In this document: positions 4,232-32,425 of the stretch, one piece after another
Numbering within the stretch: the stretch's first letter is position 1
Layout: the number at the start of each line of letters is the position of its first letter
Source: a virus
DNA: 64,000 nt
Reading direction: 5' to 3' (one strand)
Virus record (IMG/VR): IMGVR_UViG_3300042402_002564
Coordinates: 1-64,000 of that record
The notes under the pieces: model-generated
The model's input: only the letters and a program-made list of their open reading frames with translations
What the model was told of the DNA's origin: nothing
Database searches by the model: none
Program-made: the position numbers and the translations under genes

Positions 4232-4234
4232 ATC

Positions 4235-4295
4235 GTTATCGATAACAAGTGCTTGTAACAAATTTAAAATAAATATTCATAAGTTGCAAGCACTT
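4235..4295. repeat. 12-bp palindrome and long inverted repeat before the HNH gene
   Basis: Immediately after the gnd stop there is a perfect 12-bp palindrome, GTTATCGATAAC (4235-4246). Overlapping its end is an inverted repeat. AAGTGCTTG (4247-4255) pairs with CAAGCACTT (4287-4295), and a further AAC/GTT pair inside one mismatch lengthens the stem. The right arm ends exactly before the ATG of the HNH gene at 4296. It could be a translational hairpin, a terminator without a T-run, or a nuclease target or insertion scar. Confidence 0.7.
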
Positions 4296-16700: not shown

Positions 16701-17712
16701 TGGTAATGTCAATATTGAAGGTAGTGCAACTACAATTTTTAGACTCAGAGTTACTGAGACTGGAAGAGAACCAATCAGAATTACTGGTAATGTAATTGAG
16801 AAGAATACAGAATCTTATCTTGGTTCTGGTTCACTCTTTGGATTCTCCAGTACAACAGAGTCTACATCTAATGCTGAGACCTCCAAAGAACTCTTCAAGT
16901 TCTCTGGAACTGCAACAGAACTTGTTTCTTATAATCCACCAGAAGTTGGTGAATTTATTAAACTTAGTGGAACTGCAGTTGAGAGAAATACTGAATCCTA
17001 TCTTGGAACTGGTTCACTCTTCGGATTCTCTGGTGCATCTGAGTCTATTTCTAATGCCGAGACTTCTAAAGAGCTCTTTAGATTCTCTGGTAAAGGTCAA
17101 GAATCTACAACTCCAGCACCACATATTGGTTCTGGTTCTATCTTTACTTTCGTATCATTTACAGAATCCACTTCTGTATCTGAAGTATCAACTGAACTCT
17201 TCAGATTCTCTGGAACTGCTGAAGAGAAGAATACCGAATCTTATATTGGAACTGGTTCACTCTTCGGATTCTCTAGCACAACTGAAGCATCTGGTTCTAA
17301 TCCTCCAGAATCAACAATTCTCTTTAGATTCGCTGGTAAAGGTGAGGAGTCTACAACTCCTGCTCCACATGTTGGATCTGGTTCCATCTTTACATTTGTA
17401 TCCTTCACTGAAACTAGAACCGTATCTGAAGTATCAACTGAACTCTTCAGATTCTCTGGAACTGCTGAAGAGAAGAATACTGAAGCATATAAAGGAACAG
17501 GACTTATTACTTCTATCGGAAGTAAGAGCACCACAATCTTCAGAGTTAGAGTTATTTCCGATGGTTCTCTCCTCAGAATTAATGGAAATCTTCGTGAAGC
17601 ATTTGCATATGGTTTATATAATGGATACGATGAAATTCAAATTAGTGGAGAATCTAGAGATAGAAAGATTAAGGCAGAACCTAAGAAGCCACCAAGAATA
17701 TATGTAATCTAA
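13732..17712 (+). CDS. Giant repetitive tail fibre/adhesin (1326 aa)
   Basis: The 1326-residue protein is built from two repeat classes. The N-terminal half contains DYGFITE-type repeats (DDYGFITEAL, DFGLITEG, DWGLITED, DYGFVSES, DDYGFLTPD). From about residue 340 to 1270 there are many copies of a unit containing GSGSLFGFSSTTE, SKELFKFSGTAVEKNTE and TPATEIGSGSIFTFVSF. DNA-level copies are very similar, so recombination between them could vary length. Cys is almost absent. The C-terminus is basic with a KAEPKKPPRIYV tail. It is most likely a long fibre or adhesin. A late promoter for the next gene starts three bases after its stop. No catalytic domain is seen. Confidence 0.75.
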   Translation: MAVYSYTSSATLNITDGYDGDLLGSYPGYFVSTYSEEKTSFDYNKDSIVTYDVWDYGSISDAITEDEDYGEITATIELWYQIQDYGTLEVNTTRSPYGEINFGDFADSRLIRVSVGGVQFALFGRAATEVIFNPVNRVFDIEGAATVRATLASAGNGIVNFPRVKATDSVGFSSPESVFLLKIQGSAVTYPVFYEGDRVFDIEGTADESITYDYNDSSKLDLNSDDYGFITEALSRTEDFGLITEGQDIQRWDSEAEDWGLITEDITVNLYGKFKLFGKGEESFIFANYDGSWGNKQPRLLGTAKDYSTPKINGSGKITLEGTPRVQIRMHYKADGGWDRYPDRFRGGSLFGFSSATQTSTFTESPTGKLFSVQSTTTFSAVRDEVGISDEDILVRGNANYIVIFNEVDRVLTFSNIEDNSRVYSYNETSIVNVEGIDYGFVSESPTLFEDYQNITGDAYYPWEIDDYGFLTPDRPLFPYGVARIISTTADSQTKIYIGDGLTSINGNAKVYVLPKHNGSGFIRIAGELIEKNTENYVGSGSLFGFSSTSESTAVVEESKELFKFIGNAVEKNTENYVGSGLFSTLGGSAESYGPNPEEQGELFTFSGSAVERNAESYVGSGSLFSISGHAERVTYHYNESSIVDIESYDYGFITETPLFESSCDTISDYSSELISTYADEIVSEFGCVDVGDDYGLVGDQTIYPWQRDDYGFIIPDAPRRPYGKFEFISGTTDAQTKVYIGSGSLFGFSSTTEATVVQAESKGLFRISGNAAESTTPATEIGSGSIFTFVSFTETATYNPPESTELFKISGEAYVLIAPDYPGSGTITVSGEARIYVLPKHNGSGFVHIFGNAAESTTPATEIGSGSIFTFVSFTETAVFNPAESTELFKITGSAVEKSSPGPDGSGTIELNGSATTIFRLKVTETGREPIKVTGNATESTTPATEIGSGSLFGFSSTTESTSNAETSRELFRFSGTAVEKNTENYVGSGNVNIEGSATTIFRLRVTETGREPIRITGNVIEKNTESYLGSGSLFGFSSTTESTSNAETSKELFKFSGTATELVSYNPPEVGEFIKLSGTAVERNTESYLGTGSLFGFSGASESISNAETSKELFRFSGKGQESTTPAPHIGSGSIFTFVSFTESTSVSEVSTELFRFSGTAEEKNTESYIGTGSLFGFSSTTEASGSNPPESTILFRFAGKGEESTTPAPHVGSGSIFTFVSFTETRTVSEVSTELFRFSGTAEEKNTEAYKGTGLITSIGSKSTTIFRVRVISDGSLLRINGNLREAFAYGLYNGYDEIQISGESRDRKIKAEPKKPPRIYVI

Positions 17713-17749: not shown

Positions 17750-18199
17750 ATGGCAAATACCAAACGAGTACAACTTCGTAAAGGGACCGAAACAGAACAT
17801 GCCTCATTTACTGGGGCATTAGCAGAAGTAACTTATGATACGACAAAAGGTGTCATAAGAATGCATGATGGATTGACAACATCTGGATTTGAAGTTCAAA
17901 AATCTAGATTGACTGAAATTAGTTCAACAACCAATTTGGCAACTAATATTAAATACTTTACTGATACTTCTGGCGGTCCATTTACTGTAACATTACCAAC
18001 ATTAAAATATGTTGGTGATGTCATTCAATTAGCAGATTCCAAATACTATTGGGGTATAAATAATCTTACGGTGAATACTCAAAGTGGTGAACAAATAAAA
18101 GATAGTACTGGATATATTGATGCACCTTTGGTATGTGATGTATCTGGGGCTTATATAGAATTAATTTGGGAAGGAACTTATTGGAGACTGTTCTCATGA
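17750..18199 (+). CDS. Small fibre-type protein with tropism-determinant-like N-terminus
   Basis: The 149-residue protein starts with a module seen at the N-terminus of many phage fibre proteins (RVQLRKGTETEHASFTGAL, then EVTYDTTKGVIRMHDG). The second half, from about residue 60, resembles the last 80 residues of the large fibre at 18581-22369. Both contain a [N/D]TSGGxFTxTLP motif and end in W-R-[L/I]-F. The gene follows an exact late promoter and overlaps the next gene by four bases (ATGA). It may cap or dock the neighbouring fibres; the shared C-terminal domain supports that idea. Confidence 0.6.
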   Translation: MANTKRVQLRKGTETEHASFTGALAEVTYDTTKGVIRMHDGLTTSGFEVQKSRLTEISSTTNLATNIKYFTDTSGGPFTVTLPTLKYVGDVIQLADSKYYWGINNLTVNTQSGEQIKDSTGYIDAPLVCDVSGAYIELIWEGTYWRLFS

Positions 18200-18580: not shown

Positions 18581-21500
18581 ATGGCTGATTTTAGATTAGG
18601 GAGACTAAAATTCAACTGGAGAGGCGAGTGGGCACCCAGTACTGCTTATGTTATTGACGACATTGTAAAATTTGGTGCAAATACTTATGTTTGTACTACA
18701 AACCATACTTCTTCTTCTTCAGAACAAGTATGGTATTCTGTAGACGTATCAAATTGGTCTTTACATACTGAAGGAGTACGAAATGTTGGTACTTATACTC
18801 CAGGGACTTTTTATAAAATTAACGATGTAGTTCTTGATGGTAATACACAGCGTAGAGTTACCTCAGGAATTGCTACTAATGCTGGTATTGGAAGTACAAA
18901 TACTACATTATATGTTTCTGGATTTAACGGTGAGGGAACTTATGACCCAGGCGAGATTTACCAAAGTGGAGATGTTGTAGTATTTAATGGTATTAGCTAC
19001 GTAGCTATTACTACTACAACTGCTGGAGTCGTACCTCCTGTTGAATTGGGAACAAAATGGAATGTTCTTGCTGATGGTATTAATGCTGCTGGAATTACTA
19101 CCTATCAAGGAAATTCAATTTATTATAAAGGAGATTTAGTAAGACTTGGTGGAAATACATATAGACTTAACGCGACTACTGCACAATATGTTAATCCTGC
19201 AATTGGTTCTACCATTGGAATTGGATCTACTGTTGTTGGTGTTGCAGTAACTGCTTGGGATTTATTTAATACTGGATTAAGATACGCTGGAACATATTCA
19301 TCAACTACTCAATATTTTGCAAATGACGTTGTAGAATATTCTTCATCTGCATATGTTGGTATAGGTTCAACTTCATTCCAAGGAATTGTTCCTGGAACAA
19401 ATGCTGCTATTTGGGGTGCCTTGGCAATTGGAGATTCCAATGCCCTACTAACCACAAAAGGTGATATTTTAATTAGAGATTCTTCTGCCCCATCTAGACT
19501 TGGAATTTCTACAATTCCTTATAAGTCTCTTGGTGTAAGTACATCGGGTGTTCCACAATGGATGACCATTGGTGATTCTACTCGTATTTACTACGTTGAT
19601 CCAGAACTTGGTTCTGATACTTATAATGGTAGTACACCTGATATGGCATTCAGAACTCTGAAGTATGCCTGTGATAATGCTAGTGCTGTAACATCTATCA
19701 CAAACTTTGTATATGATCCATTAACTGGTATCTCTACAATTACTGCTCCTTCGCACGGAATTCTATATCCAAATATTACCATTAGACTTGAGGATATTGA
19801 ATTTGAATGTCTGAGTGGTGGTAGAAGTTATAACGTTACTGGATTTACTTATGATAGAACATCTGGTATTGGTACTGTAACTGTTGGAACTGGAGCAACA
19901 GGAATTTCTCCTGGTACAGTAGTTAGACTTAAAGACTTAGAATTTACTTGTCCTGGTGGATCTGGAATTACAACTACAATATTCCCAGATGGTACAAGAG
20001 CTCAAGGACCTAATTTCACAGTAACTTCTGTTAATAGTTCAACATCATTTGCAGTAAACGTTGGTGTTTCTACAATCAACCACATTTATGTAAGTGGTGG
20101 TAATGCATTTGTTGGATTTGATACCACAGTATTCCCAAGAAATGTAGTTGAATCTTATTTTACAGTAAGTGAAATTGTAGATAATAATACTATTAAAGTT
20201 AATGCTGGACTATCTACAATTTATCACAATTATGTAAGTGGTGGTCACGTAATTAACCTTTCACCTGCAGTTGTTAAGTTATCTGCATCTGAATTTGCTG
20301 AGCAACTTCCAATTACTGTTCCAGCATTTACAAGCATCGTTGGATCTACTCTTAGAGCGTCTAAGATTCGTCCTGCTGCTGGTTTATCAACTGATGGTAC
20401 TACTCCAAATAATCGCCAGACAATGTTTAGATTGTCTGATGCAACAACAATTCAAGGTCTGAATGTATCTGGTCTTGTTGGATTTAATTATGACGTTAAC
20501 CGTCCTTATGAATTAGAAGCAAGTACAGTTAGAACTGGTGTTGGAACAACTGCTTGTGGTGTTTACTTTGCATTCAATCCAAGTTCACCAATTTTAAATA
20601 AATCACCTTACGTTAAGGATTGTACTTCATTTGGTGATCCAGATCCTAATGGTTATGGTGGTGCTGGCGTCGGTGTATTCATTGATGGAGGAGTGCATAA
20701 TGAAGGTGCCAAGACAATGGTATTCGATGCATATACCAATGTTCTGAGTGATGGTGCTGGATTCATTCTTGATAGGGATGCTGGTGCAGAAATTGTATCT
20801 TGCTTTACCTATTATTGTAGATGGGGTTACTATTCTGGTGGTGGATCTAGAATTCGTTCTGTCGCTGGTAACAACTCTTATGGTGATTATGGTGTTGTCT
20901 CTTCTGGATTCTCTACATCAGAAACTCCAAGAACTGGTAGAGTCTTTGGTGATAGAGCAGATACCGTTGTTGGAACTATAAGTGGAACTATCGGCGTCGG
21001 TATGACAATGATTGGTGAAACCTCTGGTGCAAGAGCAACCTTCATTAATGATCAAACCAGTGCAGATAGAATTTACTTCAAGTATTGGCCTGGTTATGGT
21101 GCTACAGGTATTGGTACAACATCATTTGTCAATGGTGAGTGGGTAACATTTATTGGAGCTGGTACAACTGGTGCTCTTAGAATCGCTACTGCTGCTGGTT
21201 CAGTATCTGGACAAAAGGGTGTTATTATTGAACTTGATGAAGTTGATGGTAATAATTTACCATTAGTTGGTGATGCTATCGGATTTACTACAACTGGAAT
21301 TGGTAGTGATAGAACGGGTGGGGAAGTAAGATACTATATTATTAATAATGTAACTGGATTTACTTCATCGTATACTCAGTACCGTGGTTCTAGTGGATTA
21401 TCTTCAGTAACTTATAACAATAGAGTTACCATTACAATTTCTCCTGAAAAAGGTGGTGCTACTCCTGATACAAGATCTACTTATCTATCTGGTGTTGGTA

Positions 21501-22369
21501 CTGCTTCTGGTGGTTCATTCGTAGACATTAGAACTAAGTTCTCTAATGCTCGTTTAACTGGTCACGACTTCTTATCTGTTGGTACTGGAAACAAAGCTGA
21601 AACAAATTATCCTAACGTTGACGAATCAACTGTTCAACAGGGTAATGAGACAAATACATTTGGTCCAGGTAAAGTATTCTATGTATCTACTGACCAAGGT
21701 GGTAACTTCCGTGTAGGTGATCTCTTCTCGGTTAACCAGTTAACTGGTGCTGCAACTCTTGATGCTTCTGCATTCAACCTGTCTGGTCTTACAGAATTGA
21801 GACTCGGTTCTCTTGGTGGTCAGATTGGTGAAGCAATTAATGAATTCTCATCTGATGAGACAATGAGTGGTAATTCCAATACTGCTTGTCCTACTGAGTA
21901 TGCAGTTCGTGGATATCTTACCAGAGATAAGATGGGTAGTGAGGCTATGGTTCCTCCTACAGGAACTACTGCTGAAAGACCTGGTGTTGGCAACTTAATT
22001 GAAGGTCAATTCCGTTACAACACTGATCTTAAAACTCCAGAATATTATGATGGAACTCAATGGATTCCTGCTGGAAGATGGTTAACTGTGGATGTATCTA
22101 CAAATACTACTGCGTCATCTTGGAGAACTTACTTCTGCAATACAAGTGGTGGTGCATTTACTTTAACACTTCCTGCTTCTCCAGTTAAGGGTGATGCAAT
22201 TAGGGTATTTGACGTTAATAATACCTTTGATACTAATAACTTAACAATTGGTAGAAATGGAAAACCAATCGGTGGACTTGCTGAAAACATGACAGTAACT
22301 TCTGAAGGTGCGTCATTTGAATTAGTATTCTTTGATAATACACAAGGTTGGAGAATCTTTACTGTTTAA
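18581..22369 (+). CDS. Large fibre with chitin-binding-like repeats and a right-handed beta-helix
   Basis: The 1262-residue protein opens with about five repeats of a W-x-x-x-x-Y-x-x-x-D-x-V-x-x-x-x-x-x-Y unit, such as WAPSTAYVIDDIVKFGANTY and TYDPGEIYQSGDVVVFNG. This resembles CBM5/12-type carbohydrate-binding modules. From about residue 336, YYVDPELGSDTYNG followed by AFRTLKYAC is typical of the start of a pectin-lyase-like beta-helix. Such helices are common in phage tailspikes that bind or cut polysaccharide. The last 80 residues are shared with the small protein at 17750. A strong terminator follows. Enzymatic activity cannot be confirmed. Confidence 0.75.
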   Translation: MADFRLGRLKFNWRGEWAPSTAYVIDDIVKFGANTYVCTTNHTSSSSEQVWYSVDVSNWSLHTEGVRNVGTYTPGTFYKINDVVLDGNTQRRVTSGIATNAGIGSTNTTLYVSGFNGEGTYDPGEIYQSGDVVVFNGISYVAITTTTAGVVPPVELGTKWNVLADGINAAGITTYQGNSIYYKGDLVRLGGNTYRLNATTAQYVNPAIGSTIGIGSTVVGVAVTAWDLFNTGLRYAGTYSSTTQYFANDVVEYSSSAYVGIGSTSFQGIVPGTNAAIWGALAIGDSNALLTTKGDILIRDSSAPSRLGISTIPYKSLGVSTSGVPQWMTIGDSTRIYYVDPELGSDTYNGSTPDMAFRTLKYACDNASAVTSITNFVYDPLTGISTITAPSHGILYPNITIRLEDIEFECLSGGRSYNVTGFTYDRTSGIGTVTVGTGATGISPGTVVRLKDLEFTCPGGSGITTTIFPDGTRAQGPNFTVTSVNSSTSFAVNVGVSTINHIYVSGGNAFVGFDTTVFPRNVVESYFTVSEIVDNNTIKVNAGLSTIYHNYVSGGHVINLSPAVVKLSASEFAEQLPITVPAFTSIVGSTLRASKIRPAAGLSTDGTTPNNRQTMFRLSDATTIQGLNVSGLVGFNYDVNRPYELEASTVRTGVGTTACGVYFAFNPSSPILNKSPYVKDCTSFGDPDPNGYGGAGVGVFIDGGVHNEGAKTMVFDAYTNVLSDGAGFILDRDAGAEIVSCFTYYCRWGYYSGGGSRIRSVAGNNSYGDYGVVSSGFSTSETPRTGRVFGDRADTVVGTISGTIGVGMTMIGETSGARATFINDQTSADRIYFKYWPGYGATGIGTTSFVNGEWVTFIGAGTTGALRIATAAGSVSGQKGVIIELDEVDGNNLPLVGDAIGFTTTGIGSDRTGGEVRYYIINNVTGFTSSYTQYRGSSGLSSVTYNNRVTITISPEKGGATPDTRSTYLSGVGTASGGSFVDIRTKFSNARLTGHDFLSVGTGNKAETNYPNVDESTVQQGNETNTFGPGKVFYVSTDQGGNFRVGDLFSVNQLTGAATLDASAFNLSGLTELRLGSLGGQIGEAINEFSSDETMSGNSNTACPTEYAVRGYLTRDKMGSEAMVPPTGTTAERPGVGNLIEGQFRYNTDLKTPEYYDGTQWIPAGRWLTVDVSTNTTASSWRTYFCNTSGGAFTLTLPASPVKGDAIRVFDVNNTFDTNNLTIGRNGKPIGGLAENMTVTSEGASFELVFFDNTQGWRIFTV

Positions 22370-22435: not shown

Positions 22436-23218
22436 ATGGCATCATACTCAAGTTATAAAAAAATTTTAACAGAAAGTATAGTAGCAGGTTCTATTCCAGA
22501 ATCTAAAATTAGTTCTACTGCTCTGAAAAATTACACTGTTCAGTGGATTCGTGGTGGATTAGGTGCAGCATCTGGTGGTTGCTGCTGTCTTTGGACAGTT
22601 CCTTCTGGTGTAAGAAGAGTTACATTTGAACTTTGGGGTGCTGGTGGTAATGGTAGTGGTGCTTGCTCTAATGGTAGGTGTCAACATTGGGCTGGTGCTC
22701 AGGGAGGATACTATAACTCAAGAACAATTTCTGTTACTCCTGGATGGACATATACCGTATGTGCTGGTGGAGTATTTCCTTGTTGTCAATTTGATTGTGT
22801 TGGTTGTACTGGATGTGCTTCATTTATTACTGGATGTAATTTAAGTAACTTTTGTGCTGCTGGTGGTGTTGGTGGATGTGCTAATGCTGATTGGTCAGAA
22901 AAATGTAATTCTGATTGGGGTGCATGTTGTCTAGTACCTGGTGGATGGGGCGGTGATTTTGGAATGGGTAACCATCGTGGAGCATTTACTGGTTCATTTG
23001 CTTGCCATTGCTATCGTCATAAGTTTTGTTCTAGTGGCGGACCATTCTTAGGAAGTCCTGGAGTAGTTGGTGGATTGACTGAATGTTGGATTCGATGCGG
23101 ATGTTGGTCAGTTCCTTATAGTGCTGGTGGGCAGAGTGCTATGACCACTTATTGTGGTAATGCCTGTGGCCAAGGCGGAACGGGCGGTTCTGGTGTTGTT
23201 AAAATTACATATTTTTAA
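22436..23218 (+). CDS. Cysteine-rich glycine-rich virion protein, copy 1
   Basis: The 260-residue protein contains about 25 Cys by my count and many Gly, Trp and His. Its core has CCCLWTVP (about 49-56), ELWGAGGNG (the glycine-rich tail-fibre-type domain), repeated C-x-x-C pairs (DCVGCTGC), SNFCAAGGVGGCAN, HCY and RCGCWSVPY. It ends with GQGGTGGSGVVKITYF. Phage fibre tips of the glycine-rich type share the LWGAGG motif, but the cysteine load here is exceptional. It could be disulfide-linked after release or bind metal. It is the first of three tandem homologues and lies in a late transcription unit next to a fibre-assembly protein. Confidence 0.7.
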   Translation: MASYSSYKKILTESIVAGSIPESKISSTALKNYTVQWIRGGLGAASGGCCCLWTVPSGVRRVTFELWGAGGNGSGACSNGRCQHWAGAQGGYYNSRTISVTPGWTYTVCAGGVFPCCQFDCVGCTGCASFITGCNLSNFCAAGGVGGCANADWSEKCNSDWGACCLVPGGWGGDFGMGNHRGAFTGSFACHCYRHKFCSSGGPFLGSPGVVGGLTECWIRCGCWSVPYSAGGQSAMTTYCGNACGQGGTGGSGVVKITYF

Positions 23219-23230
23219 GGAGCAAAATCA

Positions 23231-24028
23231 ATGGCAACTTATGCAAGTTACAAAAAAGTAGATGCGGTATCTATACCAGAAAGATCCTTAACTAATGATA
23301 ATTTTTCACCAACTACTAGAAAGACTTTTGGTGTAAAATGGTTTTTTGGACCACCAGAAGCTTGTTCTCAAGGTTGTTGCTGTCTCTGGACTGTACCAAC
23401 TAATGTAACTAAACTTTTTATTGAACTTTGGGGTTCTGGTGGAAGTGGACATGGAGCATGTTCTTGCAGTAGATGTCACCACTATAAAGGTGCTGGTGGT
23501 GGACAATACAATTCTAAAATGATTACTACTGTCCCAGGATGTCAATATACAGTTTGTGCTGGTGGAAATGGAAACTGTTGCCGTTTTGAATGTATAGGAT
23601 GCTGTGGATGTGTATCTTATATGAATGGATTTAATTTAAGTAACTTCTGTGCCCTTGGTGGATCTCCTGGATGTGCTAATACCGATTGGACTACTGAATG
23701 TAATTCTGCATGGGAATGTTGTGTTCAAGGTGCCTATAACGGAGGAGATTTTGGATATGAAAATCATGCAGGAACTTTTGGTGGTGTTGAATGGTGGTTT
23801 ACAGTTGGATTCTGCCATTGTCATATTCAAGAAACACAACCAAGGTCTGCACCATTAATTGGAACTACCGTACAACAGTCAATTAATTATTGCTGGATGC
23901 GTTGTGGATGCTGGACTGTTCCTTATGGGCATGGTGGACAAGGTGCAATGACTTCTTATTGTGGTACTAGTTGTTGTGGGCAAGGTGGTATGGGTGGCCC
24001 TGGTCTTGTTAGAATTACATATTTTTAA
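23231..24028 (+). CDS. Cysteine-rich glycine-rich virion protein, copy 2
   Basis: The 265-residue paralogue of the preceding gene has about 28 Cys. It keeps CCCLWTVP, ELWGSGGSG, the C-x-x-C cluster (ECIGCCGC), SNFCALGGSPGCAN, CHCH, RCGCWTVPYGHGGQG and the C-terminal GGPGLVRITYF. The first eleven residues (MATYASYKKVD) are identical to copy 3, while the centre differs in spacing and charge. The gene is preceded by an AAGGAG site eight bases from the ATG, and the same intergenic layout recurs before copy 3. This shows tandem duplication. Confidence 0.7.
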   Translation: MATYASYKKVDAVSIPERSLTNDNFSPTTRKTFGVKWFFGPPEACSQGCCCLWTVPTNVTKLFIELWGSGGSGHGACSCSRCHHYKGAGGGQYNSKMITTVPGCQYTVCAGGNGNCCRFECIGCCGCVSYMNGFNLSNFCALGGSPGCANTDWTTECNSAWECCVQGAYNGGDFGYENHAGTFGGVEWWFTVGFCHCHIQETQPRSAPLIGTTVQQSINYCWMRCGCWTVPYGHGGQGAMTSYCGTSCCGQGGMGGPGLVRITYF

Positions 24029-24040
24029 GGAGTAAATTCA

Positions 24041-24820
24041 ATGGCAACTTATGCAAGTTACAAAAAAGTAGATGGTTCTTCTATCGTTGATGGTAGTATA
24101 AATGAAGATCGTATTTCATTGAGTTCTTTTGCTACATGGTCCGTCCAATGGATTTATGGGCAACCTTGTTTTTGTTCTACTGGTTGCTGCTGTCTTTGGA
24201 CAGTTCCTTCTAATGTAAGAAGAGTCTATTTTGAACTATGGGGTGCTGGTGGAAACGGTCATGGTGCCTGCTCTAACGGAAGATGCCAACATTATGCTGG
24301 TGCAGGCGGCGGATATTATAACGCTAAGATGATAGATACTGTACCAGGATGTCAATATACTATTTGTGCTGCTGGAGTGTTTCCTTGCTTAACTAATGAA
24401 TGTATTGGTTGTCAAGGATGTTCTTCTTATATAACTGGATTTAATTTAAGTAATTTTTGTGCCATTGGTGGTATTGGTGGTTGTGCCAATGGAAGTTGGC
24501 AGGAAGCTTGTTTTTCTGATTTTTCTTGTTGTTTAGGACCAACTTCAAATGGTGGTGATTTTGGAATGGGTAATCATAGAGGTGGATTTCATCTGCACAG
24601 CTCTAACTGCCATTGTCAATGTCGTGGAGAAACACCTACTCCAGCACCTTTTATTGGTACACAAGTACATCAAAGCACTCAAGAATGTTGGATTCGTTGT
24701 GGATGCTGGACTGTTCCTTATGGACATGGGGGCCAAGGTGGAATGACTGCTTATTGTGGTGGTTGTTGTGGGCAAGGTGGAACTGGTGGTCCTGGATTAG
24801 TTAAGATTTCTTTCCTATAA
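24041..24820 (+). CDS. Cysteine-rich glycine-rich virion protein, copy 3
   Basis: The 259-residue third paralogue has about 27 Cys. It shares CCCLWTVPSNVRRV, FELWGAGGNGHGACSNGRCQH and the C-x-x-C cluster (ECIGCQGC) with copy 1, but its N- and C-termini match copy 2. This mosaic pattern suggests recombination between copies. It also has an HCQC element near residue 190. The stop codon overlaps the late promoter for the following gene. Like the others it has no signal peptide or membrane segment, so the cysteines must stay reduced, or bind metal, in the host cytoplasm until assembly or release. Confidence 0.7.
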   Translation: MATYASYKKVDGSSIVDGSINEDRISLSSFATWSVQWIYGQPCFCSTGCCCLWTVPSNVRRVYFELWGAGGNGHGACSNGRCQHYAGAGGGYYNAKMIDTVPGCQYTICAAGVFPCLTNECIGCQGCSSYITGFNLSNFCAIGGIGGCANGSWQEACFSDFSCCLGPTSNGGDFGMGNHRGGFHLHSSNCHCQCRGETPTPAPFIGTQVHQSTQECWIRCGCWTVPYGHGGQGGMTAYCGGCCGQGGTGGPGLVKISFL

Positions 24821-24858: not shown

Positions 24859-25551
24859 ATGAAACAAATTTCAGTAGAATTTGATTTACCATTACCAAAT
24901 GAATTTTTAGTAGATCATTCTTTTAGTGAGGGTAAAACTAGAAAATATACTTATCATGGACCAGATAAAATTTATCTTCAAATTGGCGAAGATGGAACTG
25001 AAAAATATGGTCCTTTAACAGAAGATGAAATTGCAGATGGTAGACCAGTTCCTGCCGATGTTGTAGAATGGTTTGAAGTTGACTGTACAACTAATCCTTT
25101 AATTTGCCAATTGAGAGGACCTGTTGTTAATGAACTTCAGGAAGAATATACTGGAGAACAAGTTCATCCAGGGTCTCCAGTTGTAGAAGGATATCCACAG
25201 TATACTTATCAAACTCCATTAATGCCTGGTGATATATATCCCAAAACTGGTGTTAAAGTTGTTGATGGTAAACCAGTCGCTACTCCTTATAATGCAATTG
25301 AAAAACTTCATGATAAAGTAACTAATTTGACTTGGGATGATATTAGAAAGCATAGGGCATTATTATTATCTAATAGTGATGGTCAAATCGCGGAAGATAT
25401 GCCTCAATCAGTTAAAAATGAGTGGATTGAATATCGTCAAAAATTAAGAGACCTTCCTGCAGTTTTAGAAGAATCTGGTGTTGAACCAAATATTGCTTAT
25501 TACATGTTCCCTAATACTCCAGGATCAACTCCACCACCATCACAAGAGTAA
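24859..25551 (+). CDS. Probable tail fibre assembly protein
   Basis: The C-terminal third of this 230-residue protein has the layout of tail-fibre-assembly (Caudo_TAP-type) proteins. There is RKHRALLLSNSDGQIAEDMP, then WIEYRQKLRDLPAVLE, where the W-x-x-YRQxLRDLP signature is typical. Those proteins help fold or trimerise the adjacent fibre. The N-terminal two thirds (FDLPLPNEFLVDHSFSEG onward) may bind the fibre partner. Placement directly after the cysteine-rich triplet suggests those are its clients. A late promoter and a weak GATAAG site precede the start. The C-terminus is a Pro-rich tail. Confidence 0.65.
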   Translation: MKQISVEFDLPLPNEFLVDHSFSEGKTRKYTYHGPDKIYLQIGEDGTEKYGPLTEDEIADGRPVPADVVEWFEVDCTTNPLICQLRGPVVNELQEEYTGEQVHPGSPVVEGYPQYTYQTPLMPGDIYPKTGVKVVDGKPVATPYNAIEKLHDKVTNLTWDDIRKHRALLLSNSDGQIAEDMPQSVKNEWIEYRQKLRDLPAVLEESGVEPNIAYYMFPNTPGSTPPPSQE

Positions 25552-25560
25552 TAAATTTTT

Positions 25561-26094
25561 ATGAATTATAAATTATTTTATTTTGACTATATTAAAGAAA
25601 ATCAAAAAGAAATAATAAAAGATTTAAAGACATCTCAAGATAATTTAGTTAAATATGGGGTTTTCGATACTACGAAATCCTATATCTACTATAATATCTT
25701 TGGGGTGTCTTCTCCATCTAAACATTTATACGTAATATATAAAAAAATTAGAGATATTGTAAGAGATAAATTTCCAAATGAAATAATTTGGATACAGTCT
25801 TGGTTAAACTATCATGATTATGATGAAGTCCTAGGTTGGCACAATCACTCTTCTAGTTGGCATGGATATGTATCAATAGAACCTCAAGATACAATTACTC
25901 AATTTGAAGATTGGTTTATTGAAAATGAGTGTGGAAATATATATTTTGGTCCAGGGAAACATATTCATAGAGTTGTAAATAAATCAAATTATTCTGGTAA
26001 AAGAATTACAATTGGATTTGATATAATGTTAGAAAGTGATTATACTGGAATGGTTTTACCAACTGAAAATTTTGGAGCAATTCCTTTATTATAA
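25561..26094 (+). CDS. 2OG-Fe(II) oxygenase family protein
   Basis: The 177-residue protein fits the small double-stranded beta-helix oxygenases common in cyanophages. IWIQSWLNYHDYDEVLGWHNH provides the first metal ligands (about 80-100). IYFGPGKHIHRVV (about 128-140) provides the distal histidine, and KRITIGFDI the 2-oxoglutarate-binding arginine. Such enzymes hydroxylate proteins, sugars or small molecules using iron, O2 and 2-oxoglutarate. It overlaps the next oxygenase gene by one base, so the two are co-translated. The substrate is unknown. Confidence 0.75.
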   Translation: MNYKLFYFDYIKENQKEIIKDLKTSQDNLVKYGVFDTTKSYIYYNIFGVSSPSKHLYVIYKKIRDIVRDKFPNEIIWIQSWLNYHDYDEVLGWHNHSSSWHGYVSIEPQDTITQFEDWFIENECGNIYFGPGKHIHRVVNKSNYSGKRITIGFDIMLESDYTGMVLPTENFGAIPLL

Positions 26095-26798
26095 TGTTTG
26101 AAATAAATTCTGAATTAAAAGTAAAAATAGAAAGAGTTCAAGATATATTTTGGACTTCAACTGATAGTGGATTAGTAAGTTTTGATTCTAGTGTAATAAT
26201 AAAAAAACCAATTTTTATTATTGATGATTTTTACAAAAATCCAGATGAAGTTAGAAAATTGGCAAAAGAATCAAAATTGCATACTGATAAAGATATTCTT
26301 GCTGGGGCAATAGGAAGAAGAGTATGGAGAGAAGAACCAGAAATAATGTTTGAAATGGCAAATAAAATGTGCCCTGTATTTGAGCAAATGTGTCAACATG
26401 AAGAATGGCATATTAAGTTTGATAAAATTCATCATTATGAAAAATGGAATTCTATGAGATTTGTTGTTAATGTTACTAATGACAAAGAAATTATTGATTC
26501 TGGTAGAGATTGGGATACAATCTGTCATATTGATGGCCCTTATAATAAATGGGCATCCTTGGTGTATTTAAATACTCCAGACGAATATGGATCTGAAGAT
26601 TCTATTTCTGGAACTGGATTTTATTCTGTGGTTGAACCAGAAAAAAATGGATCAATTAATAAACCAAAGTTGCAATATACATGCTCAATGAAGTATAATA
26701 GGGCAATATTATATGACGCTAATCTGGTTCATGGTGCAATTTTAGAACCAAATATGTACAAAGATTATGATAGAATGACACAAATTATGTTTTTTTGA
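26094..26798 (+). CDS. 2OG-Fe(II) oxygenase-like protein (DUF6445 type)
   Basis: The 234-residue protein begins with a 'bodyguard' segment IFIIDDFYKNPDEVRKLAKE, typical of this phage oxygenase group. It then has DTICHIDGPYNKWASLVYLNTP, with an H-x-D metal motif at about 144-146, and GTGFYS. RAILYDANLVHGA has the distal His, and DRMTQIMFF the arginine. All expected catalytic positions are therefore present. It is coupled to the upstream oxygenase (TAATG). The protein at 41146-41631 has the same plan in a shorter form. The target may be a virion protein or glycan; that is inference. Confidence 0.7.
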   Translation: MFEINSELKVKIERVQDIFWTSTDSGLVSFDSSVIIKKPIFIIDDFYKNPDEVRKLAKESKLHTDKDILAGAIGRRVWREEPEIMFEMANKMCPVFEQMCQHEEWHIKFDKIHHYEKWNSMRFVVNVTNDKEIIDSGRDWDTICHIDGPYNKWASLVYLNTPDEYGSEDSISGTGFYSVVEPEKNGSINKPKLQYTCSMKYNRAILYDANLVHGAILEPNMYKDYDRMTQIMFF

Positions 26799-26803
26799 TT
26801 GGT

Positions 26804-26811
26804 CTAAATAA
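26804..26811 (+). promoter_or_regulatory. Possible variant late promoter (CTAAATAA)
   Basis: CTAAATAA occurs in the 68-base gap between the oxygenase pair and the glycosyltransferase gene. No TATAAATA is present there. Same element as at 22408-22415. Confidence 0.35.
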
Positions 26812-26866
26812 TTCAAATTAAGCTATTAAAATAGCAAATATTAGTTAATACTGGGGTTGAACACAA

Positions 26867-28003
26867 ATGAGATCAAAAGCATTTTTTATTAATGGTGGAG
26901 CTGGCAGAGTAATATGCTCTATCCCTGCATTTGAAAAATATGCAGAAACTCATGACGATTTTATAATCGTTTGTGAAGGAGGAACAGATTTCTATAAAGG
27001 TCATCCTATTTTACATAATAAAGTATTTGATAGTTGGCATAAAGGATTGTTTGAAAAAGAAATTAAACATAGAGATTGTATAAGTCCAGAACCATATAGA
27101 ATTTGGGAATATTACAATCAAAAATGTAATTTATCTCAAGCATTTGATATGATCATTAACAATCTTGAAGAACCTAGGGAACTTCAAGATCCAAAAATAA
27201 TTTTAAATAAAATGGAACTTTTACAGGGATATAATTCTGTAGAAGAAATAAAGGCAGGAACTGGTAAAGATAAGGTTTTGGTTGTTCAACCATTTGGTAG
27301 AAGTGTAGAACAAGTTGGTAATGATTTTATTGCAGATTCCACTTCACGAAGTTTTTCTCTTAATAATATTGTTGAAATTATTAATGAACTTAAGAAAGAT
27401 TATGCAGTAGTTATTATGAGTGAAATTCATTTTCCTCTTGAGAAAAATGAAGACAAATCTAAATATCGTGTTGCAAGACCTCAAATTACTGATATGAGAC
27501 TTTGGGCAAGTATTATTAATGCTGCCGATCACTTTTTGGGATGTGATAGTATGGGGCAACATATTGCTAAAGCATTTGGTAAAACTGCAACTGTTGTTCT
27601 AGGGTCTACATACCCCGAAAATATTTCTTATCCAAATTCAAAAGATTTTGATATTATTGATGCTGGACTTGATAGAAGAAAATATAGTCCTATTAGAATT
27701 TCAATAGATGAAGAAATTGATAGGTATAATGATGAAGCAATGGAATTAGACACAAAAAAAGTTCAAGAAGTAATTGCTTCCGTTAAAAAAAGAATGGGTA
27801 AATCTGTAGCTTATACTGGTGATTGGGTGCAAACTTCTTCACAACAATCAACATGTTGCCCCAAACCCCAAGATAAAATGGCAATATCCCCTGATATGAA
27901 AATGCCATCAAATCCAGTGTTAATGCCAAAAGAAAATAAAGGTTTTAGTGGAAAAGAATCTTTAGATAAAGAAATTAATAATATTTTAAAAAAACTTAAG
28001 TGA
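26867..28003 (+). CDS. Glycosyltransferase family 9 (heptosyltransferase-like)
   Basis: The 378-residue protein has a GT-B layout. It has an N-terminal FINGGAGRVICSIPAFEKYA, where GGAGRVICSIP resembles the GDxLxxxP nucleotide-sugar loop of GT9. In the C-terminal domain is FLGCDSMGQHIAKAFGKTATVVLGSTYPENISYP (split here into FLGCDSMGQHIAKAFGK and the following strand), the classic GT9 'D-S-x-x-x-H-x-A-x-A-x-G' donor site (about 224-250). GT9 enzymes usually transfer heptose from ADP-heptose to lipopolysaccharide. ADP-heptose synthesis genes follow at 31.3-35.0 kb, so the donor is probably ADP-heptose. The last 70 residues are low complexity and atypical. Confidence 0.75.
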   Translation: MRSKAFFINGGAGRVICSIPAFEKYAETHDDFIIVCEGGTDFYKGHPILHNKVFDSWHKGLFEKEIKHRDCISPEPYRIWEYYNQKCNLSQAFDMIINNLEEPRELQDPKIILNKMELLQGYNSVEEIKAGTGKDKVLVVQPFGRSVEQVGNDFIADSTSRSFSLNNIVEIINELKKDYAVVIMSEIHFPLEKNEDKSKYRVARPQITDMRLWASIINAADHFLGCDSMGQHIAKAFGKTATVVLGSTYPENISYPNSKDFDIIDAGLDRRKYSPIRISIDEEIDRYNDEAMELDTKKVQEVIASVKKRMGKSVAYTGDWVQTSSQQSTCCPKPQDKMAISPDMKMPSNPVLMPKENKGFSGKESLDKEINNILKKLK

Positions 28004-28012
28004 GGTAATTAA

Positions 28013-29806
28013 ATGACTCAATGGATTGCTGCTATTGCTAGAGGTCACAATTCTGGCGTGTGTTTATTAAAAGATGGTGAATTAGTTTTTTCTATTGAAG
28101 AGGAAAGACTGTCTAGACATAAGTATGATGGTGGACCATTGGCTTCAATGGTTAAAATATTAGAGTATACTAATCGCTTAGACTATCTTGTTATCGCTCA
28201 TACACAACCATTATCTGATGCTGGTAAAATTGATTTTACTGGGGATGATATGTATACTGGTATGGCTAGAAAACTTGGGTTAATTGATAGAAAGGAAAAT
28301 AACTATGATCATCCTCAAGTTATTGATTTAAGTAAAATTCATCACAAGTTACATGCTTCTTGTGCTTTTTATCGTTCTGGTTTTGAGAGTGCTGTTGCTG
28401 TTATTGTTGATGGTGCAGGAACTTTTATTCCAATGAATTTTGGAAGACAGCAAGAAATGACATGGGAATTAGAAACTATTTTTAGTTGTGAATATCCTGC
28501 AAATATCAAAACTCTTTATAAACATCAGGGGGGTAGAGGTCCATGGGCTTCTGTCAAAATTCCCGAAATGTATAATCAGGATGAGGAATCTAATTATGAA
28601 TTGATTGTTGACGAAACTGCTGGTATTACAAAAGCATATGAAGCAGTAACTCAATATTGTGGATGGCCTCCTATTGAAGCTGGTAAAACCATGGGATTGT
28701 TCCCTTATGGAAAATTAAATGATAAAGTCCCAGAAATTTATACTGATTGTGGTGGGGGAAAATGGAAGAGTGCTGATAGAAATGTTATTGTCCCTACCTA
28801 TCCTAATGGTGCAATTGTTAATGAAGGAAGATTTGAATTTCTTGAAACTCCAGAAGAATTTGAAGATCTAACTCTTTTAGAAAATCGTCGTGACTTGGCG
28901 TATGCTATTCAAACACAATCACAACAGATGGTTCTTGATTTAATTCGTAAAGCAGTTCAAATGTCTGGAAATAATAATGTTGTTATTTCTGGTGGATATG
29001 GACTTAATTGTGTTGCAAACTATTGGTATCTTGAGCAACTTAAAGATGAAGGAATTAATCTTTATGTTGAACCAGTAAGTAATGATGCAGGAACTGCTAT
29101 TGGTGCTGCATTGCTTGCTCATCATAGACTTAATGAAGATGGTATTGTCAAATCTAGAATTGATAATCTTTATACTGGATTAGAATATACTTACATTCAA
29201 ACTGAAATTCAAAGTATTTGTGAAAAATACAATGTAACATCAGTATCGAGTTCAAATTATAAAGATATTGTTGAATTAATTACCCAAAAAAATATCGTTG
29301 CATTGTTCCAGGGAAGATCGGAGGCTGGTCCTCGTGCTCTTGGTAATCGTTCTATTCTTTATGATCCTAGAGATCCAGATGGTAAGGATCATGTGAATAG
29401 AATTAAAAGAAGAGAATACTTTAGACCTTTTGCAGGATCTATTTTGCAAGAGCACGTTCACGACTGGTTTGATCTAAGAGGAATGGAAGATTCTCCTTTT
29501 ATGATGTATGCAGTAAACTGCAAGGAAGGGATTGAGGAAAAAATTCCAGCAATTATTCACGTTGATTGTACTTGTAGAATACAGACAGTAACAGAAGAGC
29601 AAAATAAACATTATTACAATCTCATTTCTGAGTTCTATAATCAAACTGGTTGCCCAATTATTTTTAATACCTCTTTTAATCTTGGTGGAGAACCTTTAGT
29701 TGAAACCTTGGACGATGCGATCAGAACTCTTGCAAATAGTCTTATTGAATATTTGTATCTTCCAGAATATGAACTTTTAATTTATGTAAAAAATGAAAAA
29801 AATTAA
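28013..29806 (+). CDS. NodU/CmcH-type carbamoyltransferase
   Basis: The 597-residue protein is a full-length carbamoyltransferase. It has the N-terminal ATP-fold GHNSGVCLLKDGELVFSIEEERLSR, the metal-binding HHKLHA (about 109-114) and IVDGAG. A C-terminal YrdC-like/Kae1-type half has GPRALGNRSILYDPRDP and NTSFNLGGEPLVET. These enzymes use carbamoyl phosphate and ATP to carbamoylate hydroxyls on sugars or antibiotics. The gene lies in the GT9-halogenase-heptose operon and overlaps the halogenase start by 14 bases. The acceptor is probably a glycan made by neighbours. A second, more diverged copy is at 36661-38253. Confidence 0.9.
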   Translation: MTQWIAAIARGHNSGVCLLKDGELVFSIEEERLSRHKYDGGPLASMVKILEYTNRLDYLVIAHTQPLSDAGKIDFTGDDMYTGMARKLGLIDRKENNYDHPQVIDLSKIHHKLHASCAFYRSGFESAVAVIVDGAGTFIPMNFGRQQEMTWELETIFSCEYPANIKTLYKHQGGRGPWASVKIPEMYNQDEESNYELIVDETAGITKAYEAVTQYCGWPPIEAGKTMGLFPYGKLNDKVPEIYTDCGGGKWKSADRNVIVPTYPNGAIVNEGRFEFLETPEEFEDLTLLENRRDLAYAIQTQSQQMVLDLIRKAVQMSGNNNVVISGGYGLNCVANYWYLEQLKDEGINLYVEPVSNDAGTAIGAALLAHHRLNEDGIVKSRIDNLYTGLEYTYIQTEIQSICEKYNVTSVSSSNYKDIVELITQKNIVALFQGRSEAGPRALGNRSILYDPRDPDGKDHVNRIKRREYFRPFAGSILQEHVHDWFDLRGMEDSPFMMYAVNCKEGIEEKIPAIIHVDCTCRIQTVTEEQNKHYYNLISEFYNQTGCPIIFNTSFNLGGEPLVETLDDAIRTLANSLIEYLYLPEYELLIYVKNEKN

Positions 29807-31286
29807 TTCAGTAAAAAGAATAACTATTGTTGGTGGAGGTACTTCTGCATGGTTGAGTGCCGCCTTCTTTTTAAAACAATCACAGTTTGGTACAGAAATT
29901 GTAGTTATTGATAAAGAAAAGGGAAATCCTGTTGGAGTTGGTGAAGCAACATTACTTAGTTTTAAAACTTTTATGGATTTTTGTGGATTTCCTATTCAAT
30001 CCTGGTTTGATGAAATTGATGCTACTTTTAAATCGGGAATTCTATTTACAAATTGGAATAGACAAAATGATGACATTTGGCATCCTTTTTGTTTTCCTCA
30101 ATTTGATTTTTTAAAATCTTCTTTACTCAACTTATGGTCAAAAACTAATTTTGGTCTTAAAACACATGGATCTGCTTTATATGAATGTTCTGTAAAAGAA
30201 AACAAAATAGATACCAATAATATTGGAGCATATGCATTCCATATTGACTGTGGAAAATTGGTAAAATTCATTCAATCTCAAATAAAAAATAATATTAATT
30301 TTATAAATTCTGAAGTTATTGATATTATTAGGGATGATACTGGTGATATAAATCATTTATTATTGGTAAATGGTCAAAAAATAGAATCTGATTTGTATAT
30401 TGATTGTACTGGATTCAAAAGATTTTTGGGATCCAAACCAAAAACTGTAAATCTTAGAGATAGACTATTTTGTGATACTGCAATTGCTGGGCATATTCCT
30501 TATAAAAATGAATCTGAGGAAATGCGTCCATATGTAATTTGTGATGCTGTAGAACATGGTTGGATTTGGAATATACCAGTTAGGTCTAGAATAGGTTCTG
30601 GTTTAGTTTTTAATAGATCTGTAACTGACATAGAAGAAGCAAAAGAGTATTTTGTAAATTATTGGGATAATAGAGTAGAAAAAGAATCGTTAAAAGTTAT
30701 TGATTGGACTCCGTATTACCATGAAAATTTTTGGGATAATAATGTGGTGTCTATTGGATTATCTGCTGGATTTATTGAACCATTAGAAAGCACTGGTGTT
30801 GGTCTTATTTGTGCGGGTATTTTAGAACTCGGGGATAGATTGAAAAAAGCACATTATAATTATGATGATATTAATCTATACAATTGTAAGATGAAATGTT
30901 TTTTTGAATCTGCAGTTGATTTTGTTAATATGCATTATTCCAATACAAATAGATTTGGTAAATTTTGGGAATGGGTAAAAAGAGAACATACGGTTAATAC
31001 TACACATCAATATTTTATTGATGAATTTTTAAATAACCCATATAGTTTTCCTCATGGTGGAACAGAAATGTTTGATGGGAATAACTGGAGTATATGGCTT
31101 TGTCAATTAAATACATCTTTTATTCCAAAATTTGCAGATGGTGTTGATACCAAACATTCATATGAGTTAGTAAATAATTTTCATGATAATGAAATAGAAA
31201 AACATAAAAATTCTATTTTGCACTCGGAATTTGTTAAAACCTTTACTAAAGAATTAAATGGAAAAAATGGAAAAAATATTCGTTAA
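29793..31286 (+). CDS. Flavin-dependent tryptophan halogenase
   Basis: The 497-residue protein has the FAD-binding IVGGGTSAWLSAAF near the N-terminus and GVGEATLLSF. The active-site lysine is in ATFKSGILFTNW (about residue 81). The halogenase-specific W-x-W-x-IP motif appears as WIWNIP (about 256-261), and SAGFIEPLESTG follows. All signature residues are intact, so halogenation with chloride or bromide and reduced flavin is likely. It could act on free tryptophan, a peptide or another aromatic. It overlaps the carbamoyltransferase start-to-end by 14 bases and the heptose gene by 29. This ties it to the surface-modification operon. No flavin reductase is in the window. Confidence 0.9.
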   Translation: MKKINSVKRITIVGGGTSAWLSAAFFLKQSQFGTEIVVIDKEKGNPVGVGEATLLSFKTFMDFCGFPIQSWFDEIDATFKSGILFTNWNRQNDDIWHPFCFPQFDFLKSSLLNLWSKTNFGLKTHGSALYECSVKENKIDTNNIGAYAFHIDCGKLVKFIQSQIKNNINFINSEVIDIIRDDTGDINHLLLVNGQKIESDLYIDCTGFKRFLGSKPKTVNLRDRLFCDTAIAGHIPYKNESEEMRPYVICDAVEHGWIWNIPVRSRIGSGLVFNRSVTDIEEAKEYFVNYWDNRVEKESLKVIDWTPYYHENFWDNNVVSIGLSAGFIEPLESTGVGLICAGILELGDRLKKAHYNYDDINLYNCKMKCFFESAVDFVNMHYSNTNRFGKFWEWVKREHTVNTTHQYFIDEFLNNPYSFPHGGTEMFDGNNWSIWLCQLNTSFIPKFADGVDTKHSYELVNNFHDNEIEKHKNSILHSEFVKTFTKELNGKNGKNIR

Positions 31287-31674
31287 TGGTACTTTTGATA
31301 TTTTGCATAAAGGACATTTAGAACTGTTAAATTATGCCAAATCAAAAGGAGATATTTTATATGTTGCCATTGATACTGATCAGAGAGTTAAAGAAAAAAA
31401 AGGAGAATCAAGACCAATTAATAATCAAAATGATAGGGCAGAATTTTTAATTAATTTAAAATCTGTAGATTATGTTGTTCTATTCAATACAGATGAAGAA
31501 TTAGAATATTTGGTTAAAAGTATAGAACCTGATATAATGGTTGTAGGTTCAGATTGGATTGGTAAAACAGTTATTGGATCTGAACATGCAAAAGAATTAA
31601 AATTTTTTAATAGATTAGATGGATACTCAACTACAAACACAATTGAACGTATTGTTAATAGGGGAGAAGTGTGA
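31258..31674 (+). CDS. hldC: Heptose-1-phosphate adenylyltransferase (HldC/RfaE C-domain)
   Basis: The 138-residue protein is a stand-alone nucleotidyltransferase of the HldE C-terminal type. It has FVNGTFDILHKGHLELL, with the H-x-G-H catalytic motif, then DTDQRVKEKKG and a terminal YSTTNTIERI (the ISTT-like motif). It activates D-glycero-beta-D-manno-heptose-1-P with ATP to ADP-heptose. A second in-frame ATG at 31267 is an equally good start. In most bacteria it is fused after the kinase domain. Here it is a separate gene placed before the kinase and overlapping it by 56 bases in another frame. Confidence 0.88.
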   Translation: MEKMEKIFVNGTFDILHKGHLELLNYAKSKGDILYVAIDTDQRVKEKKGESRPINNQNDRAEFLINLKSVDYVVLFNTDEELEYLVKSIEPDIMVVGSDWIGKTVIGSEHAKELKFFNRLDGYSTTNTIERIVNRGEV

Positions 31675-32425
31675 AGATGAATATCTTTATGGTGATGTAG
31701 AACGCATTAGTCCAGAAGCTCCAGTACCAATACTTAAGTATATTTGTACTGAAACTCATTCTGGAATGTCTTCTAATGTTAAAAATAATCTAGAATCTTT
31801 TGGTATTAATGTAGTTCATATAACCAATAAAGAAACTATTAAAAAAACTAGAGTAGTTCACAATGGTAGTAAACAACAACTTTTAAGAATTGATAAAGAT
31901 GTAAAAGTATCTCCGATTAAACCCTCTGAGGTTCGGAGTGCTTTTTTGCATTTTTCTTATGATGCAGTTGTTGTATCTGATTATGATAAAGGTCTTCTTA
32001 CAACTGACGACCTTAAAGTAATTTGTCAGAACTTTAATGGTCCTGTTTTTATTGATACTAAAAAACGGGATTTATTTACTGAAAAGAATGTAATTTTTAA
32101 AATAAATCAGAGAGAATATAATAATCTTATATCTTATCCAGAGGATGTACATTTAATTGTTACTATGGGTAGTGATGGAGTTAAATACTTGGGATATACA
32201 TATCCATCGGAAAAAGTAAATGTATTTGATGTTGTTGGTGCTGGTGATACCTTCTTAGCAGCATTTGTATACTCTTACTTGACATGTAAAGAAGATAGAT
32301 TTAGATTTTCTGAATCTATTAAATATGCAAATAAAGCAGCAGCAATTGCTGTTCAACATTTTGGTACATATACATTATCAGAAGATGATATTAGGAGTTT
32401 AAATAATGGCAATATATTGTATTGA
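31619..32425 (+). CDS. hldA: Heptose-7-phosphate kinase (HldA/RfaE N-domain, PfkB family)
   Basis: The 268-residue protein matches the kinase half of HldE. It has the typical YGDVERISPEAPVPI (about 24-38), KTRVV, LRIDKD, VVSDYDKG, the PfkB anion-hole motif VGAGDTFLAAF (about 204-214) and ANKAAAIAVQHFGT. It phosphorylates D-glycero-D-manno-heptose-7-P at C1. The N-terminus lies inside the adenylyltransferase gene. The ATG at 31619 gives a MDTQLQTQLN lead before the NVLLIGE strand, and a downstream TTG is an alternative. The protein is shorter than the roughly 315-residue bacterial domain, mainly at the N-terminus. Confidence 0.85.
   Translation: MDTQLQTQLNVLLIGEKCEDEYLYGDVERISPEAPVPILKYICTETHSGMSSNVKNNLESFGINVVHITNKETIKKTRVVHNGSKQQLLRIDKDVKVSPIKPSEVRSAFLHFSYDAVVVSDYDKGLLTTDDLKVICQNFNGPVFIDTKKRDLFTEKNVIFKINQREYNNLISYPEDVHLIVTMGSDGVKYLGYTYPSEKVNVFDVVGAGDTFLAAFVYSYLTCKEDRFRFSESIKYANKAAAIAVQHFGTYTLSEDDIRSLNNGNILY

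Follow-up and report, generated by a model that had tools for sequence, protein, structure and literature searches.

Results

Three tandem genes for cysteine-packed proteins

The window analysed here is a stretch of 64,000 nucleotides, positions 1 to 64,000 of the IMG/VR virus record IMGVR_UViG_3300042402_002564, which holds 246,502 bases in all. Its plus strand carries a triplet of tandem genes encoding paralogous proteins that are packed with cysteine (Table 1). The three frames are separated by gaps of 12 bases each, and cysteine makes up 9.6, 10.6 and 10.4% of the products of copies 1, 2 and 3, respectively, compared with a median of 1.2% (maximum 6.3%) among the other stop-to-stop frames of at least 150 residues on the plus strand of the window (n = 41). 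The corresponding glycine counts are 51, 43 and 47. An earlier note, written from this sequence alone, had described three neighbouring paralogues of about 260 residues with 25–28 cysteines (about 10%) and repeated CxxC, CCC, CxC and RCGCW elements, all of which are indeed present. Its statement that the motif LWGAGG is kept holds for copies 1 and 3, but copy 2 has LWGSGG instead.

The triplet proteins cover positions 1–285 of the 287 positions of the profile phrog_4205, whose function is given as unknown in PHROGs, and they are its only matches in the whole record. The Pfam family Gly_rich_2 (PF21722, cut-off 24.3 bits) is matched below its cut-off by copy 2 (22.6 bits) and copy 3 (16 bits) and is without a match at E ≤ 1 in copy 1; among 130 relatives, 75 match this family at E ≤ 0.01, the best at 5.1e-9. 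A sequence search of the PDB with a profile of the window-like relatives (group I, see below) gave no match at E ≤ 1, and a further profile retrieved fusion constructs only, at E > 3.

Table 1. The triplet and its adjoining genes in the window
Feature	Position	Strand	Basis
Copy 1, cysteine-rich putative fibre-tip protein, 260 residues, 25 Cys	22436..23218	+	phrog_4205, E 3.7e-54
Copy 2, cysteine-rich putative fibre-tip protein, 265 residues, 28 Cys	23231..24028	+	phrog_4205, E 2.5e-56
Copy 3 (the modelled one), cysteine-rich putative fibre-tip protein, 259 residues, 27 Cys	24041..24820	+	phrog_4205, E 1.5e-58
Residues 151-215 of copy 3, a variable stretch and proposed host-contacting end	24491..24685	+	Distance between phages; role by analogy with Pam3
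Gene for a long tail fibre, preceding the triplet	18581..22369	+	phrog_9851 tail fiber protein, E 9.8e-267; Pfam CBM_5_12, 4 stretches
Probable fibre-assembly chaperone	24859..25551	+	Pfam Phage_tail_APC (PF16778), E 2.1e-7; phrog_4912 tail fiber assembly, E 3.3e-8

A constant number of copies

Relatives were collected by scans of IMG/VR. The first, with a nine-member profile, returned 258 related stretches, of which the best 80 were kept (79 loci). Later scans, seeded by proteins of the phages S-CAM1, S-CAM3 and P-SSM2 and by divergent members, returned at least 168, 59, 214 and 123 related stretches and gave 78, 55, 80 and 80 loci, the last two sets consisting mostly of known contigs. The relatives were divided into group I (window-like), group II (S-CAM-like) and group III (P-SSM2-like), and their median cysteine contents are 10.0, 10.3 and 9.2%, respectively (192, 175 and 94 distinct proteins in the fetched phages and the loci of scans one to three).

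For the copy-number count, identical clusters were taken once, and a cluster was regarded as uncut if at least 1 kb was available on either side. Three copies are present in all 40 uncut distinct clusters of group I and in 72 of 72 of the distant group II, and two copies in 43 of the 44 of group III, in a sample whose scans would miss other copy numbers or cysteine-poor copies without the search motifs. Even among clusters less than 1 kb from a contig end, the full number is found in 58 of 59 (group I), 10 of 15 (group II) and 7 of 9 (group III). The survey of copy number that the earlier note had proposed has thus returned a constant three or two, and this fixed number of co-evolving copies is a feature that the note had overlooked. 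The sole uncut group III locus with one copy, L198, has a match to a second copy limited to its first 23 residues (L198:8560-8628), which may reflect a damaged gene or an error in assembly. A scan of genome contigs for a host origin returned at least two related loci, both titled metagenome-assembled genomes; these are probably stray phage contigs, and a host origin was rejected.

The named relatives S-SSM7, P-SSM2, S-CAM3 and S-CAM1 are Kyanoviridae according to their records, and a further relative, Sf-FS3, has a record without a family. In S-SSM7 and Sf-FS3, the triplet has a long fibre-like gene on one side and a chaperone-like one on the other. S-CAM1 and S-CAM3 (three proteins of 24–36 cysteines) and P-SSM2 (two with 36 each) contain hyper-cysteine proteins, annotated as hypothetical, in the same gene neighbourhood as the triplet in the window. 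Predicted structures of these proteins are the two best BFVD matches of the copy 3 model (20–29% identity). However, they are longer (278–356 residues) and form separate sets on the tree.

Conservation and exchange of the cysteines

The group I alignment and tree consist of 201 rows, i.e., 67 distinct triplets, after 14 identical triplets of the 81 three-copy loci had been dropped; L020, a locus cut by a contig end, is absent from the trees. For the profile used in database searches, 71 of the 201 rows were dropped as near-copies. In the numbering of copy 3, which is used throughout, cysteine occupies 14 columns (49, 50, 51, 77, 82, 109, 116, 127, 140, 164, 190, 192, 216 and 239) in 201 of 201 rows, and it occupies seven more (121, 124, 157, 163, 220, 222 and 243) in 174–200 rows. 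Because these 14 columns are invariant, the cysteine richness goes beyond chance, and cysteine positions, whose lack of conservation would have spoken against the earlier note, are in fact strongly conserved. Mean entropy is 0.65 for columns in which cysteine is commonest, as opposed to 1.01 for those in which glycine is.

Two pairs of columns behave as mutually exclusive sites. At columns 104 and 134, cysteine is combined with tyrosine, phenylalanine or histidine in 131 rows and tryptophan with cysteine in 52, while 18 rows have no cysteine and none of the 201 has two. Similarly, 183 rows have cysteine at 163 alone, 14 at 142 alone, 4 at neither and none at both. In the rows that lack cysteine at 104 and 134 (18) or at 142 and 163 (4), the only further cysteine-free column is the variable column 43. 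Elsewhere cysteine is replaced by histidine or aspartate: at 220 by histidine (16 rows), at 222 by aspartate (6 rows) and at 242 by aspartate (26) or histidine (19), and columns 220 and 243 as well as 242 and 243 are coupled. In one clade of nine loci, C243 is missing from all three copies; all 27 proteins also lack C242 and C79, 26 of them lack C45, and 16 have histidine at 220.

For a given column, cysteine changes in different copies share a branch of the tree in 28 of 107 possible cases, compared with 83 of 1488 for different columns across copies and 54 of 809 for different columns within a copy. Either the equivalent cysteines are coupled, as they would be near a threefold axis, or they have been spread by short gene conversions. 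Cysteine at column 198, on the other hand, belongs to one position (55 of 67 copies 1, but 0 of 67 copies 2 and 0 of 67 copies 3). When cysteine presence was compared across copies in search of inter-chain partners, the traits in the pairs listed had changed only once or a few times, which is not enough for significance.

A predicted fold of the Pam3 fibre type

A model of copy 3, built on 124 aligned relatives, has a predicted local distance difference test (pLDDT) score of 83.9. Its closest VIA-align matches are two entries of the cyanophage Pam3 fibre, with Z scores of 16.9 (root-mean-square deviation 3.2 over 195 residues) and 16.0, followed by the Bxb1 tail tip (11.6), the glycine-rich domains of ALK/LTK (10.2–8.0) and then matches at 4.2; Foldseek aligns the model with 7ypx at E 4.7e-7. 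The model of this one copy is therefore predicted to have the tumour necrosis factor (TNF)-like plus glycine-rich fold of the Pam3 gp24 type. Residues 1–33 contain only three-residue helices, and the mean pLDDT values for residues 1–30 are 51, 70 and 61. The polyglycine lattice adhesin S16 gp38 was not among the matches listed for the model, which does not exclude an S16-type fold.

According to PMC9608196, Pam3 gp24 forms a trimer in which a helical docking domain is combined with a TNF-like and a glycine-rich one, and its co-expression with the chaperone gp25 gave much soluble complex; gp24 was reported as detected in virions and gp25 as not. The same source proposes residues at the distal loop ends as receptor-binding. 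The Pam3 proteins (7ypx, 7yfw) resemble the system in the window both in the TNF-like plus glycine-rich architecture, as predicted for copy 3, and in the chaperone-like gene that stands next. In contrast, Pam3 has one gene and a homotrimer (PMC9608196) where the window has three paralogues, the sequences are 16–17% identical, and about 10% cysteine is peculiar to the window side of the comparison. The long N-terminal helix of Pam3 has no counterpart in the window model, whose N-terminal end is poorly modelled.

The Synechococcus phage Syn9 offers a further comparison, as its gp36, gp38 and gp39 are also glycine-rich and lie at the fibre locus, and gp38 matches the copy 3 model in BFVD (E 9.6e-9). 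Unlike the window proteins, they have 8, 2 and 7 cysteines with 111, 58 and 91 glycines. Syn9 gp36 (L224:28855-29805; 316 residues) carries its 8 cysteines among 111 glycines in short GCYGCW- and SCSGC-like motifs and is possibly intermediate between glycine-rich and cysteine-rich tips.

Orthology by position and divergence in step

On the group I tree (201 tips), the position labels need six changes, where the minimum possible is two and the shuffled mean 95.2, and the exceptions affect whole lineages. The copies are largely orthologous by position. Within the window, copy 3 is 62% identical to copy 1 and 61% to copy 2, and copies 1 and 2 share 53%, whereas copies 1, 2 and 3 are 73, 81 and 71% identical to the same-position copies of the related contig L014. 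Since each copy is nearer to its same-position counterpart in L014 than to its own paralogues, the triplet is old. A recent duplication or mosaic as the main story was rejected in view of this clustering by position, and local gene conversion may remain; the earlier view of copy 3 as a mosaic of copies 1 and 2 survives to the extent that local stretches favour either of them. On a FastTree tree of 476 proteins, in which long branches are present, the group I rows (201) all fall into one starred set, so that the threefold state would be separate in origin in groups I and II, or homogenised.

The between-phage distances of the three copies are highly correlated (Mantel r 0.91–0.93) and have nearly the same means (0.39, 0.40 and 0.40). 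Residues 151–215 differ more between phages (mean distance 0.52–0.53) than residues 33–150 (0.31–0.33); residues 11–30, outside the fold, are as variable as the former. Within one phage, the paralogues are 34–41% identical in the variable stretch and 66–70% in the stem.

Surroundings of the triplet

Judged by its genes, the source virus is a T4-like cyanomyovirus, because the neighbours include a tail fibre, a carbamoyltransferase, a tryptophan halogenase and a nucleotidyltransferase and the named relatives belong to the Kyanoviridae. A relative of the C-terminal 450 residues of the long fibre lies upstream of the triplet in all 36 group I loci with room for it. On the other side, the fibre-assembly-like neighbour pointed out earlier does adjoin the triplet and scores 31.1 bits against Phage_tail_APC, above the curated cut-off of 26.6. 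All 80 group I loci with enough room contain a relative of this chaperone-like gene. With the window's protein as query (E ≤ 1e-5), relatives turned up in 3 of the 53 group III loci with room and in none of the 74 of group II; in these two groups a link to a chaperone is suggested by position and a looser search only. The model of the chaperone-like protein (pLDDT 94.0) matches nothing in the PDB clearly (best Foldseek E 2.5, best Z 4.9), and Pam3 gp25 is not among the structural matches listed for it.

The glutaredoxin mentioned in the earlier note is real (35745-35915) and is the only one in the record by family search, but it lies about 11 kb away and its link to the triplet is weak. Searches of the record, which is maybe a fragment, found no thioredoxin family member at E ≤ 0.1 and no Evr1/Alr oxidase at E ≤ 1; DsbA and others were not searched.

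Several further genes were noted in the window. Behind the fibre tip, 25561-32425 encodes a weak match to 2-oxoglutarate (2OG)-Fe(II) oxygenases, a DUF6445 protein, a carbamoyltransferase, a tryptophan halogenase, a cytidylyltransferase and a PfkB kinase. Where group I loci extend far enough (4 kb), the carbamoyltransferase is found in 58 of 58 and the halogenase in 30 of 58. In Syn9, the fibre locus is followed by two halogenases and several 2OG oxygenases. Upstream, a 1,326-residue protein (13732-17712) consists mostly of repeats of GSGSLFGFSSTTE-like units and has only a weak DUF4075 stretch in Pfam, and the small protein that precedes the long fibre (17750-18199) contains the N-terminal domain of the major tropism determinant (Mtd_N, E 7.1e-12). 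The frame at 4191-4664, with 6.3% cysteine arranged in CxxC pairs, presumably resembles an HNH endonuclease.

Discussion

The modelled match to the Pam3 fibre and the gene order of fibre, triplet and chaperone-like gene together indicate, with a probability that we put at close to nine in ten, that the three genes encode fibre-tip adhesins. This agrees with the glycine-rich fibre-tip kind to which the earlier note had assigned them. Its suggestion of a polyglycine tip fares less well, as glycine makes up a group median of 17% of the whole protein, far from the 39% given for the glycine-rich domain of Pam3 (PMC9608196). Their place in the virion was assumed in the earlier note. It is very improbable that the proteins are non-virion and act inside the cell, e.g., as metal-binding or assembly factors, given that the predicted fold matches that of a virion fibre and that the genes keep a constant place behind the fibre gene.

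Tail-fibre trimers are usually built of one chain. In the arrangement that we favour, the three genes would form the distal, receptor-binding tip of the tail fibre, each chain being a TNF-like β-sandwich that bears a glycine-rich loop domain with conserved cysteines throughout its loops. The three paralogues would form one A:B:C trimer, in place of the Pam3 homotrimer from one gene, and the product of the downstream gene would help assembly. As no long N-terminal helix is modelled, the chains would be seated on the preceding long fibre. By analogy with Pam3, residues from about 151 to 215 would be the variable, host-contacting end. The core set of cysteines would brace the loop stem, our first choice being disulfides, some of them inter-chain, that would close once the virion, after lysis, meets oxidising sea water. 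A mixed trimer is slightly favoured over separate homotrimers; for the joint claim of a fibre tip that is also an A:B:C trimer, the odds fall just short of even, and for cysteines held mainly in disulfides they are level.

Several observations weigh against parts of this proposal, and they are considered here with the alternatives that they favour. The virion proteomics discussed in PMC3037559 covers S-SM1, S-PM2 and Syn9 rather than these phages, which leaves some room for an intracellular role. The divergence of the copies in step is predicted by an obligate three-part complex, but linkage alone also gives it in part, and gene conversion also gives same-column coincidences. The clustering by position is not perfectly clean, as copies 1, 2 and 3 need 3, 3 and 4 label changes, and subunit identity is weakly marked, the sole copy-specific residue kept across lineages being at column 205 (leucine in copy 1, isoleucine in copies 2 and 3). 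The two copies of group III likewise do not fit a three-chain tip. Three separate homotrimeric tips, one per paralogue, would give a virion with three adhesins for different receptors or fibre positions, a design that we consider a serious if lesser contender. It is in keeping with the near absence of copy-specific columns, with the two-copy state of group III, with the low identity of paralogues in their variable stretch relative to the stem and with the known relative Pam3 gp24, a homotrimer (PMC9608196); the tail fibres identified so far are described as trimers in that source. However, independent adhesins would be expected to come, go and swap singly, whereas uncut clusters of groups I and II always have three and the copies diverge in step.

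The state of the cysteines is the other matter on which the evidence divides. Even cysteine counts occur in 114 of 201 (group I), 92 of 177 (II) and 51 of 94 (III) proteins, and the sum per cluster is even in 28 of 67, 30 of 59 and 24 of 47, respectively. As only about half are even, full pairing, be it in each chain or across a 1:1:1 trimer, is disfavoured. The idea that all cysteines are in intrachain disulfides is contradicted by this parity and by the finding that losses of conserved cysteines do not come in pairs, and was rejected. The exchange of cysteine for histidine or aspartate at 220, 222 and 242 fits metal at least as well as disulfides. A metal-clustered adhesin, with cysteines as ligands of zinc, iron or copper, would also accommodate the odd counts, the coupling of 220 and 242 with 243 and the clade of nine loci that altered C243, C242, C79 and nearly always C45 in all three copies. 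We regard it as unlikely, though, since the histidine and aspartate substitutions trace to few events on the tree and the mutually exclusive sites pair cysteine with an aromatic residue rather than another ligand. Those same sites, above all the packing-like exchange between 104 and 134, would suit a loop lattice in which most cysteines stay reduced as small packing residues in place of glycine and few are chemically linked; so would the absence of pairwise losses. This alternative has similarly poor prospects, as packing alone hardly explains why 14 columns are never serine, alanine or glycine in 201 rows. Disulfides in phage tails do have precedents: PMC11821841 describes Pam3 fibres disulfide-bonded to baseplate subunits, and PMC10811340 describes tail components of the Agrobacterium phage Milano crosslinked by disulfides. 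However, these bonds are in the sheath, the baseplate and the fibre bases, and the distal garland proteins of Milano are described in the latter source as having no cysteine. A more far-reaching scenario, which we offer as speculation, is that two lineages independently arrived at an obligate A:B:C tip, starting from a homotrimeric glycine-rich fibre, with equivalent cysteines meeting near the threefold axis as a redox or metal latch set after lysis.

The fold and the fibre-plus-chaperone arrangement were already known from Pam3; the new element is the fixed copy number of cysteine-packed paralogues. Among the open-licence papers listed in our searches, we found no description of the cysteine-packed form with a constant three paralogues or of a heterotrimeric cyanophage fibre tip. 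For PHROG 4205, the results point to a likely role. If a receptor-binding tip is indeed made of an unvarying trio of co-evolving, cysteine-packed paralogues, its design would be unusual, and the chemistry of virions in sea water, whether redox or metal, could then be tested in cultured phages such as S-SSM7, S-CAM1 or P-SSM2.

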